A stretch of DNA of 64,000 nt from Dokdonella sp. GTDB taxonomy: Bacteria > Pseudomonadota > Gammaproteobacteria > Xanthomonadales > Rhodanobacteraceae. Positions 55,160 to 60,070 of the stretch are shown piece after piece. The stretch is taken from NCBI RefSeq assembly GCF_019634845.1, contig NZ_JAHCAQ010000001.1, forward strand, positions 267,235 through 331,234, written 5' to 3'. The position numbers and the translations under genes were made by a program. The notes below the pieces were generated by a model, which did no database searches, was not told the DNA's origin, and was given only the letters and a program-made list of their open reading frames with translations. Position 1 is the first letter of the stretch. Each line of letters begins with the position of its first letter.

Positions 55160-56155
55160 TCAGGCCAGGCGCACGATCGTGCGGCCCAGCGAACGGCCGC
55201 CGACCATTGTCGCAAAAGTTGCCGGCAAGGCGGCCAGATCCACTTCGTGTGCCGCGATCGTGGCCAGGTGCATTGGCTTCCATGGGCCTGCCAGGCGCTG
55301 CCAGACCTCGTCGCGCAGCGCGCGCGCGGTGCCGGCCGAGGCCACGCCCAGCAGCGACAGGCCGCGGATGATGAATGGCATCACCGTGGTCGCCAGCTCG
55401 ATGCTGGCGGCGTTGCCGCAGGTGGCGATATTGCCGTAAGGCCCGATCACGCGCGTGAGGCCGGCCAGCATGTCGCCGCCGACGTTGTCGATCGCGCCGG
55501 CCCAGCGCGCGGTCTCGAGCGGGCGCTGGCCCCAGAACAGGCCTTCGCGCGCGATGCACTGCCTTGCGCCCAGGCCGATCAGGTAGTCGAACTGCTCGAC
55601 CTTGCCGGTGATCGCGTGTGCCTCGAAGCCGGCGCGGGTGAGGATGTCGATCGCCAGCGAGCCGACCCCGCCGGTGGCGCCGGTGACGACGATCGGGCCC
55701 ATGTCGGGCGTCTGCCCATTGCGGATCATCTGGCTCAGCGCGAGTGCGGCCGTGAAGCCGGCCGTGCCGAGCTGCATCGCCTCGCGCAGCGTGAGCCCGT
55801 CGGGCAGCGGGATCGTCCATTTCGAGTCCAGCCGCAGGTATTGCGCGTAGCCACCGTCGCGGGTTTCCGACAGCCCGCAGCCCGTGCACAGCACCGCATC
55901 GCCTTCGCGGAACGACGGGTCCGTCGAGGCGGCGACGTAGCCGGCGGCATCGATGCCGCCATTGAGCGGAAACCGGCGCAGGATCTTGCCCTTGCCGGTG
56001 CCGGCCAGCGCATCCTTGTAGTTGACCGAGGAGTAGGCAACCTTGACCAGCACCTCGCCGGGCGTCAGTTCCTCGGTCGACATTTCTTCGATGCCGGCGC
56101 GGTAGCCGGCCGCGTCGTTGTGGATGCGGAAGGCGGAGAAGGCTTGTGCGGTCAT
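55160..56155 (-). CDS. Acrylyl-CoA reductase-type oxidoreductase (AcuI/YhdH family)
   Basis: A 331-residue medium-chain dehydrogenase/reductase without zinc. Signatures are VKVAYSSVNYKDALAGTGKGKI, FPLNGGIDAAGYV, VVTGATGGVGSLAIDIL (NADPH-binding GxGxxG type), and ITGKVEQFDYLIGLGAR. AcuI/YhdH enzymes reduce acryloyl-CoA to propionyl-CoA with NADPH, protecting from this toxic intermediate. ATG 56155 (MTAQAFSAFRIHNDAAG) is the start; the longer frame reaches into the downstream palindromic repeat. No DMSP or propionate genes are adjacent. Confidence 0.88.
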   Translation of the reverse strand: MTAQAFSAFRIHNDAAGYRAGIEEMSTEELTPGEVLVKVAYSSVNYKDALAGTGKGKILRRFPLNGGIDAAGYVAASTDPSFREGDAVLCTGCGLSETRDGGYAQYLRLDSKWTIPLPDGLTLREAMQLGTAGFTAALALSQMIRNGQTPDMGPIVVTGATGGVGSLAIDILTRAGFEAHAITGKVEQFDYLIGLGARQCIAREGLFWGQRPLETARWAGAIDNVGGDMLAGLTRVIGPYGNIATCGNAASIELATTVMPFIIRGLSLLGVASAGTARALRDEVWQRLAGPWKPMHLATIAAHEVDLAALPATFATMVGGRSLGRTIVRLA

Positions 56156-56172: not shown

Positions 56173-56201
56173 CGTCATTCCAGCGAAAGCTGGAATCCAG
56201 C
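56173..56201 (+). repeat. Left copy of a 29-bp palindromic repeat flanking the GIY-YIG gene
   Basis: CGTCATTCCAGCGAAAGCTGG... over 29 bases is the exact reverse complement of 56513-56541. Within it ATTCCAGC and GCTGGAAT form an 8-bp stem closed by a GAAA tetraloop, like REP/BIME elements. It ends 11 bases after the stop of the GIY-YIG gene. Confidence 0.9.
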
Positions 56202-56212
56202 TCTTGCATGGA

Positions 56213-56500
56213 TCAAAGAAGATTCGGATAAAGATCCTGCCACCTTGGGTTGGACGCTTCGATCACGTCGATTTTCCATGGGCGCTTCCATGCCTTGATC
56301 GCTTTTTCCCGGGCGATCGCCGACTCCATCGTCTCGTGCTGCTCGAACCAAACGAGGTTGTGTATCCGATACTTTTTTGTGAAACCAGCCACCGCGTCGT
56401 TCTTGTGTTCCCAGATGCGCTTGACGAGATCGGAAGTCACTCCGACGTAGAGAGTGCCTTTCCAGTCGCTCGCCAGCATGTAGACGCAGGGTTGTTTCAT
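56213..56500 (-). CDS. Small GIY-YIG nuclease domain protein
   Basis: A 95-residue protein consisting of a GIY-YIG domain only: VYM at residues 6-8 in the GIY position, YVG at 18-20, Arg28 in DLVKRIWEHK, and glutamate 65 in AIAREKAIKAWKR, all in family-like places. This is the stand-alone UPF0213-like group related to YhbQ. The ATG at 56500 has GGCGGG upstream; the open frame extends upstream only by translating the palindromic repeat. The gene fits exactly between two inverted 29-bp repeats with 11-12 bases to spare. Composition is less GC-rich than the surrounding genes. Confidence 0.88.
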   Translation of the reverse strand: MKQPCVYMLASDWKGTLYVGVTSDLVKRIWEHKNDAVAGFTKKYRIHNLVWFEQHETMESAIAREKAIKAWKRPWKIDVIEASNPRWQDLYPNLL

Positions 56501-56512
56501 CGCCCGCCAAAG

Positions 56513-56541
56513 GCTGGATTCCAGCTTTCGCTGGAATGACG
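56513..56541 (-). repeat. Right copy of the 29-bp palindromic repeat
   Basis: Exact reverse complement of 56173-56201, starting 12 bases upstream of the GIY-YIG start codon. It carries the same GAAA-loop 8-bp hairpin. The two copies make the gene a 369-bp cassette. Confidence 0.9.
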
Positions 56542-56569: not shown

Positions 56570-56597
56570 CGTCATTCTGGTCTTCGCCGGAATGACG
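56570..56597. repeat. Diverged third palindromic repeat
   Basis: CGTCATTCTGG and CCGGAATGACG form an 11-bp stem with one G-U pair around TCTTCG. The outer eight bases equal those of the two flanking repeats, so it is probably a diverged member of the same family. It lies 16 bases beyond the lipoprotein stop and may also act as its transcript-end hairpin. Confidence 0.7.
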
Positions 56598-56613: not shown

Positions 56614-57273
56614 TTACCGTGCGGAAAGTCGTTGGTGCTGCCAACCTTCAGACGTGAGCACGAATATGTCAGTTTCCGTGTGTTCACCGGCAAGCTGTTT
56701 GGCGATGGCGGGGAATGCCTTCTGAATTGAAGCATCCTGTGTCCATTGGGCAGCGCCTTGGATCGTGTAGCGGTAGCTGACCTTGGAGATGCGATAGCCC
56801 ATCGAGTCTGCGGGTTCGGTGTAGCTGTCAATGGCAACGACCTTTGGTGTGCCAAAACACAGCTGATGCAGCGTCATCTTGCCGAGCCCGCCACCGATCA
56901 CGCGGTCTTGGTAGTACTTCTTGCCCAGTTCGCTCAGGTCGTAGCGCGTTGCGGCCACCGGTGTGGGCTTGTCGAGCGTGAAACCGCGAGGCGCGATCGT
57001 GGTCGGGCTTCCGGTCAGCAGGCCGACGGAAGCCATGGCGAGAATCTGCACAGCATTGTTCAGCGAGTCTCCAAGTTCGTTGCGCTGGTCGGGAAGGGTC
57101 GCAGGAAACGGAGCGTCGAGGGAGCGAAGGTCGATACAAGCCGGTGCGCGTGTTTGGTCAAAGTATGCGTCCAGCGCCTTCTTGAAATTGGCTTTGCTGG
57201 CCGCCTTCGGGTCGGCACACGCAGTCAAGCAGATTGCGGCTAGGGCAGATGCAGCAAATTTCCCTGCTTGCAC
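56614..57273 (-). CDS. Hypothetical lipoprotein
   Basis: A 219-residue protein not assigned to a family. It begins with a lipoprotein signal peptide with lipobox LTAC at about residues 16-19, so it should be anchored in the periplasm. The start is GTG 57273, supported by AAGGAG six bases upstream. The mature part is mixed alpha/beta with CIDLRSLDAPFP and RYDLSELGKKYYQD and two further cysteines. Lysines, lower GC and non-GC3 codons set it apart from neighbours, suggesting recent acquisition together with the adjacent GIY-YIG cassette. It lies between acuI-like and lpd genes. Confidence 0.8.
   Translation of the reverse strand: MQAGKFAASALAAICLTACADPKAASKANFKKALDAYFDQTRAPACIDLRSLDAPFPATLPDQRNELGDSLNNAVQILAMASVGLLTGSPTTIAPRGFTLDKPTPVAATRYDLSELGKKYYQDRVIGGGLGKMTLHQLCFGTPKVVAIDSYTEPADSMGYRISKVSYRYTIQGAAQWTQDASIQKAFPAIAKQLAGEHTETDIFVLTSEGWQHQRLSAR

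Positions 57274-57315: not shown

Positions 57316-60070
<2,755 letters not shown>

Follow-up and report, generated by a model that had tools for sequence, protein, structure and literature searches.

A GIY-YIG nuclease gene enclosed by inverted CGTC-type REPs in Dokdonella: a probable REPtron-like cassette

The stretch of Dokdonella sp. DNA analyzed here (64,000 nucleotides of contig NZ_JAHCAQ010000001.1, hereafter the window) carries, between acuI and lpd, a small GIY-YIG nuclease gene enclosed by two inverted copies of a repetitive extragenic palindrome (REP). The two arms match each other as reverse complements without a mismatch over 29 bp and at 94% over 34 bp, and gaps of 11 and 12 bases separate them from the ends of the 95-codon open reading frame (ORF), just as a first-pass annotation of the window had described (Table 1). 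Read on its own strand, each arm consists of CGTC, ATTCCAGC, GAAA, GCTGGAAT and CCAGC, with the heads directed outward. On the strand starting with CGTC, each arm is a hairpin whose 8-bp stem is perfectly paired and whose loop is GAAA, with a DNA folding energy of -7.8 kcal/mol (z -5.3), which bears out the hairpin proposed earlier for each repeat; the diverged third copy that had been reported nearby is also present and has a CGTC head at both of its ends. We interpret the locus, with a probability of about 0.6, as a REPtron-like cassette in which a GIY-YIG nuclease takes the place of a REP-associated tyrosine transposase (RAYT). The architecture supports this reading well, whereas its action is unproven.

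Table 1. Position of the cassette and of its neighbors in the window.
Feature	Coordinates	Strand	Remarks
CGTC-1-type REP, left	56173..56201	+	head outward toward acuI; CCAGC tail toward gene
GIY-YIG nuclease gene, 95 aa	56213..56500	-	Pfam match, invariant residues, AlphaFold2 model, dN/dS
CGTC-1-type REP, right	56513..56541	-	exact inverted copy of left REP; head outward
Diverged third palindrome	56570..56597		double-headed (CGTC at both ends); outside cassette
acuI-type acrylyl-CoA reductase	55160..56155	-	TIGR02823; cassette just upstream of acuI start
219-aa ORF (ORF219)	56614..57273	-	far side of cassette, between cassette and lpd
Dihydrolipoyl dehydrogenase, lpd	57316..58737	-	immediately precedes acuI in several cassette-less relatives

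Di Nocera et al. (2013; PMC3733652) describe CGTC REPs as having a CGTC head, a stem of 8 or 9 bp that almost always starts A-T, a loop of 4 or 5 nt and a CCA tail, and their CGTC-1 subclass, which includes dRS3 of Neisseria, as combining an 8-bp stem with a 4-nt loop. The window repeats have the CGTC-1 form throughout, namely the CGTC head, the AT-starting 8-bp stem, the 4-nt loop and the CCA tail. They share these traits with dRS3 and the other CGTC-1 REPs and differ in that a nuclease gene is flanked by them here. The dRS3 pattern itself, given as ATTCCC(N8)GGGAAT in PMC3898611, is not matched as the window stems read ATTCCA...TGGAAT. Rfam returned nothing near threshold, its one match scoring 18 bits where the gathering score is 40.

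The encoded protein matches the Pfam GIY-YIG profile PF01541 at 56.2 bits (cut-off 22.6). Six residues (Y7, Y18, G20, R28, E65 and N84) show no variation among 18 diverse homologues and 30 closer ones, and we take Y7, Y18, R28, E65 and N84 to have catalytic roles; the profile score and the conserved Y, Y, R, E and N place the protein in the GIY-YIG superfamily. The AlphaFold2 model has a pLDDT (predicted local distance difference test) of 93.2. Its best Foldseek matches, of which none had an E value below 0.001, were UPF0213 (1zg2), Slx1 and the UvrC N-terminal domain; 1zg2 was also found by profile search (E 8.5e-8). The likeness to these three lies in the fold whereas identity in the structural matches is 18-24%, and the window protein belongs to a separate subfamily. 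Comparison with three same-genus orthologues gave a ratio of nonsynonymous to synonymous divergence (dN/dS) of 0.09-0.15 at dS of 1.2-1.4; the nuclease is therefore under purifying selection. Homologues flanked by CGTC-type REPs were found across Pseudomonadota and in metagenome-assembled genomes (MAGs) labelled Desulfobacterota or Deltaproteobacteria, and among 50,697 phage records only one phage (two accessions) gave a match, a weak one.

The association with REPs was found to be general. A first set of 110 loci (30 of the matches from relatives and the best 80 of 187 wider matches; 105 unique) was supplemented with phylum-wide loci, paralogues and 14 loci from 33 plasmid-collection records to give an extended set of 259 unique genes. 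A strict ATTC...GAAT palindrome lies within 200 bp at 75 of the 105 loci and on both sides at 44, with 143 copies in 41.7 kb near the gene and 12 in the 331 kb more than 500 bp away. Under a looser head-plus-stem rule the numbers rise to 96 loci, 66 of them two-sided, and to 228 copies near the gene against 21 distal ones, an 86-fold enrichment. In the extended set, a GTC-headed hairpin was observed within 200 bp at 178 of the 259 loci (both sides, 116; 31.6-fold over distal sequence), and perfect 8-bp hairpins of any sequence were found near 198 (14.7-fold). Without reference to any motif, an inverted repeat of 14 nt or more is common to the two 250-bp flanks at 159 of 249 loci compared to 1 of 480 shifted placements, and a direct repeat of that length at 105 of 249 compared to 4 of 480. 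A CGTC hairpin occurs within 500 bp at 44 of the 49 GIY-YIG loci then collected from 148 related genomes, and at none of the best 30 Y1-transposase (Y1_Tnp) loci from the same genomes, for which distance was taken from the domain match. The gene is flanked by REPs in Azospirillum lipoferum, Sinorhizobium meliloti and the Neisseriae, which are among the CGTC-positive species named in PMC3733652. The commonest architecture, one REP on each side with the heads outward, was seen at 36 of the 160 loci at which the rule applied here recognized a REP.

At four of the 14 plasmid-collection loci (Planktothrix, Rhizobium tumorigenes, Spirosoma and Sinorhizobium C101) no CGTC-type hairpin was found; the flanks hold long direct repeats of other kinds in Planktothrix and C101, an 11-nt direct repeat in Spirosoma and none in R. 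tumorigenes. Other repeats beginning GTCAT were seen beside homologues (among loci L218, L292, L296, L249, L138 and L146), namely GTCATTGCGAGGAGCGAAGCGACG, a 69-nt inverted repeat with GTCATTCTAGGG, GTCATTCTGAGTGAAACGAAG in Planktothrix and GTCATCCCGAGGAACGAGG near the Spirosoma gene, and the link may therefore extend past the CGTC-1 to -4 REPs.

The REPs vary between loci in an orderly way. REPs with a 9-bp stem and a 5-nt loop flank the genes of Rhizobium CIAT894, S. meliloti and Shinella, those with an 8-bp stem and a 5-nt loop flank the gene in two sphingomonads, and the 8-bp, 4-nt form occurs in Azospirillum and Neisseria. Across 140 loci, whose selection itself required a GTC head, stem bases 3 and 6 vary yet remain paired, the loop is G-N-A-N with G or A mostly as the final base, and the tail is mostly CCA. 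The head is not a product of that selection alone, as 354 of 371 perfect units found without a head requirement have GTC at one end or, once, at both. Left and right stems are identical at 89 of the 116 two-sided loci (shuffled mean 11.5, maximum 23 in 5000). When mapped on the tree of 258 proteins, loop type requires 16 changes as against 22.6 in shuffles confined to host families and the sixth stem base 23 as against 49.5, values that none of 400 shuffles reached in either case. REP subtype is inherited together with the protein clade, and some of this matching simply reflects gene and flanks travelling together. Paralogues in one genome can have different REP types, with four types found among the five copies examined in genome G535.

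REPs of the same subtype are also dispersed away from the gene in the same genomes. At least ten CGTC-1 palindromes were found in 38 of 67 relatives with the gene and in 10 of 81 without it (148 relatives; p 8e-9; permuted within genus, p 2e-4). Among 398 genomes of the phylum, at least four copies of a CGTC pattern that misses sphingomonad forms occur in 55 of 111 with the gene and in 30 of 287 without (p 4e-16). In 27 genomes where a cassette had been typed and five or more other copies were present, the dispersed copies share the sixth-base type of the resident cassette at a mean of 0.72 compared to 0.44 when permuted (p 1e-4; T type assigned by subtraction), and within-genus permutation gives 0.65 (p 0.005).

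The window genome (G000; 3.26 Mb in 27 contigs, 90% complete) contains the exact palindrome only as the two cassette arms, and the 27-base pattern with up to three mismatches only as those arms and the diverged third copy. The high host copy number that is a trait of CGTC-1 REPs is thus found in many relatives and not in this genome. As dispersed copies are lacking here, the locus could be a quiescent relic with an intact gene and one repeat pair. A chance palindrome is excluded by these pattern counts together with the motif-free flank control, and a common genome-wide REP unconnected to the gene is rejected by the counts, the flank enrichment and the Y1_Tnp control.

Azospirillum and Sphingobium plasmids offer sites both with and without the cassette. 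The gene of A. lipoferum 4B, flanked on each side by a REP pair, is located in the sufB-sufC interval, which exceeds by 490-530 bp its counterpart in A. ramasamyi, A. oryzae and B510; these three, about 94% identical, have neither gene nor REP at the site. In the Sphingobium plasmids TYG46, MM7A, TYG73 and MM15 a REP-gene-REP unit lies between fnrL and a response regulator gene. At the same site a solo double-headed REP was found in TYG64 (perfect) and TYG74 (slightly diverged), no REP in TYG72 and a headless, different palindrome in TYG65. The solo REP of TYG64 fits a deletion between the two repeated stem arms, or else a target. Because only one of 371 perfect CGTC-1 units (259 loci) is double-headed, a general role of such REPs as scars is not borne out, and the case for a scar comes down to two plasmids of Sphingobium, with an imperfect copy in one. 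A gene-less heads-out REP pair is present in MM7A and TYG73 and absent from TYG46. The nuclease gene of TomTYG73 (L306) has a one-base deletion (frameshift) relative to its neighbors, and some cassettes therefore decay.

Upstream of acuI, the cassette is present in 6 of 16 Dokdonella genomes and REPs flank the gene in all six. Stems at this site vary between species, and left matches right in five of the six (genome G003 differs). The proteins of G009 and G012 (58% and 65% identical to that of the window genome) group together and then with other genera, which is suggestive of two independent insertions, though a single clade is not rejected by the approximately unbiased (AU) test (p 0.31). 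On the points that the first-pass annotation had raised for follow-up, the whole-genome search recovers only the cassette pair and the diverged copy, relatives hold copies both with and without the gene, homologues elsewhere are flanked at the 96 of 105 loci given above, and several relatives have lpd directly before acuI. Two circumstances that it had named as speaking against a cassette were not encountered, since the window genome does not have the repeat as a widespread REP and none of the six acuI-site genes lacks flanking repeats.

As stated in that annotation, no target-site duplication is visible around the window cassette. The lower GC content that had been taken as a mark of the cassette was observed (0.53-0.55 against about 0.64-0.72 in acuI and lpd), but it is not limited to the cassette because the neighboring ORF219 is also low (0.56-0.62). 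ORF219 has no Pfam or NCBIfam match, and relatives of it occur at the acuI locus in G002 (about 75% amino acid identity) and G012 (50%), both with the cassette.

Some further observations concern individual records. Near-identical nuclease genes lie close together at L296 (G113; 99%), L159/L181 (G420; 95%) and L297 (G145; 87%), an arrangement that suggests local cassette duplication. The homologue on a Planktothrix agardhii plasmid (L138) has a type IIL restriction gene (MmeI) on one side and the DISARM gene drmA on the other. Record labels appear doubtful among L076, L045, L049, L134 and L135; doubtful labels include a Chloroflexi MAG with a proteobacterial-type cassette and MAGs named Bordetella parapertussis, while gonococcal 'plasmids' of 2.17 Mb are probably chromosomes.

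The locus resembles a REPtron in that a small gene lies inside inverted REPs, gene-less pairs are dispersed and enzyme clade matches REP type, whereas the enzyme here is a GIY-YIG nuclease and not an HUH tyrosine transposase, and the head is CGTC and not GTAG (the RAYT side of this comparison follows PMC3733652 in part). For the family as a whole, the gene is flanked by inverted REPs of the dispersed type; the dispersed copies are absent in the window genome. The earlier comparison with REP elements mobilised by RAYTs holds as regards the flanking REPs, the dispersed copies, the copy-number link and the unit-less sites, and the nuclease may be the mobiliser that it proposed. The window protein shares 53% identity with its gonococcal homologue, whose gene has hairpins of dRS3 form on both sides. 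This Neisseria gene among dRS3 repeats is presumably ssn, and the window enzyme probably belongs to the Ssn family of single-strand nucleases. In Neisseria meningitidis, Ssn reportedly cleaves NTS repeats when they are single-stranded and thereby modulates natural transformation (Chenal et al., Nat Commun 2025). The likeness lies in a small GIY-YIG enzyme with dispersed cognate repeats in Neisseria; that work reportedly concerned cleavage and transformation, whereas the cassette architecture, presence and absence at sites and the link to CGTC REPs were measured here. The earlier statement that no named system of this form is known is thus probably wrong, with the repeats fitting CGTC-1 REPs and the enzyme family presumably being Ssn. 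No paper tying GIY-YIG enzymes to REPs was found among those listed by searches of openly licensed literature.

The nuclease is conserved, has REP partners to which it is linked in cis and in trans, and is present or absent at given sites; we infer that it cleaves and mobilises them. It would recognise its own REP as a single-stranded hairpin, by the CGTC head, the G-N-A loop, the CCA tail and a stem that is free in sequence but paired, and this hairpin might be exposed during replication, transformation or transcription. A nick at the REP head could then be followed by host repair or replication, through which the segment bounded by the REPs would be copied or moved. Heads-out REP pairs that lack the gene would be its non-autonomous derivatives, in the way that REPINs are for RAYTs, and a cassette lost through deletion between its repeated stem arms would leave behind a double-headed REP on its own. 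A wider proposal, which we advance tentatively and at somewhat less than even odds, is that single-strand nucleases of the stand-alone GIY-YIG kind drive their own movement and, acting in trans, that of the CGTC REPs present in many bacteria. They would represent a new class of mobile palindromic element and supply the missing transposase of the superfamily, with heads-out pairs being non-autonomous and solo double-headed REPs being scars or targets. As of 2013, CGTC REPs had no dedicated transposase according to PMC3733652.

Several observations weigh against the REPtron-like reading. Neither transposition nor cleavage was observed in what is a sequence analysis, and GIY-YIG enzymes hydrolyse DNA and are not known to join it, so that host functions would have to do the joining. 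Neither a closely related pair with a clean junction nor a target duplication turned up among the Azospirillum, Sphingobium, Rhizobium CIAT894 and pNL2 neighbors, the intergenic DNA aligned around unit-less sites being diverged. The window genome has no CGTC-1 copy beyond the pair and the diverged third, and 14 of the 67 gene-carrying relatives have no exact copy of the CGTC-1 pattern, among them G002, whose cassette REPs are of another stem type. Conversely, the ten relatives and thirty phylum genomes that reach the copy thresholds given above do so without the gene, although 17 of the thirty are less than 95% complete. The commonest dispersed type matches the cassette in 20 of 27 genomes, which is not significant within genus (p 0.08). 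A strict GTC hairpin is absent at 81 of the 259 loci, and 16 of these 81 share no flank repeat of at least 10 nt. The heads-out arrangement is not universal, with 36 out/out, 17 in/in and 13 mixed among 66 two-sided loci, and gene-less pairs far from the gene comprise 11 heads-out, 6 heads-in and 9 tandem. Lastly, 17 of the 30 Y1_Tnp loci share an inverted flank repeat of their own; flank repeats alone therefore mark mobile genes and not the GIY-YIG enzyme.

The strongest rival, rather unlikely in our judgment, is a non-mobile system of nuclease and target sites, inherited and transferred together, that acts on incoming or exposed single-stranded DNA and modulates transformation or recombination at REP arrays. 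It ranks first because, if Ssn acts in Neisseria as reported, the enzyme step has been demonstrated in relatives, whereas the nuclease may or may not drive spread; the dRS3-type repeats flanking the gonococcal homologue and the strong constraint on the nuclease gene agree with it. On the other hand, the REP-gene-REP unit in the suf operon of one Azospirillum and not of three relatives resembles selfish spread, as do paralogues with their own REP types and the dispersed gene-less REP pairs. That the hairpins merely regulate or insulate expression of the nuclease gene, as terminator or attenuator, is improbable: the nearest hairpins do lie 3-60 nt from the gene ends at many loci, but neither a T-run terminator nor a promoter role was found in the examined stretch of the window, and regulation leaves the asymmetric head and tail and the type-matched genome-wide copies unexplained.

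Movement of the REPs by another enzyme, a RAYT or a phage integrase, with the gene's surroundings as an unselected island where they land, seems very improbable. It finds a precedent in dRS3 as the integration site of the filamentous phage Nf1 in Neisseria (PMC3898611), but the absence of CGTC hairpins from all 30 Y1_Tnp loci, the nuclease dN/dS near 0.1 and the matching of REP subtype to both protein tree and dispersed copies disfavor it. According to PMC3733652, moreover, no tyrosine transposase gene of CGTC-positive species was found to be flanked by CGTC units. We give least credence to hairpin-templated correction or conversion between inverted copies, which would keep flanking REPs alike with no need for mobility. 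It would account for acuI-site stems that differ between species and match from left to right, whereas the presence of REPs at the site, the copy-number link and the presence or absence of units are left unexplained; correction between arms can act alongside a REPtron-like cassette. A homing endonuclease in a split target is also disfavored as both flanks are complete inverted copies and not half-sites.

The observation is real and general, with the repeat superfamily named and the enzyme family probably named, and the window locus is a quiet member with an intact gene and only one repeat pair. CGTC REPs reach hundreds of copies in some genomes, and almost 700 dRS3 are given for the meningococcus in PMC3898611. 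Given a consistent GIY-YIG partner matched by subtype, what spreads CGTC REPs can be put to a direct test that needs only a protein of 95 residues and an oligonucleotide of 28 nt. The family also offers natural pairs of nuclease and hairpin, inherited together, with which sequence-specific cutting of single strands could be studied or put to use.
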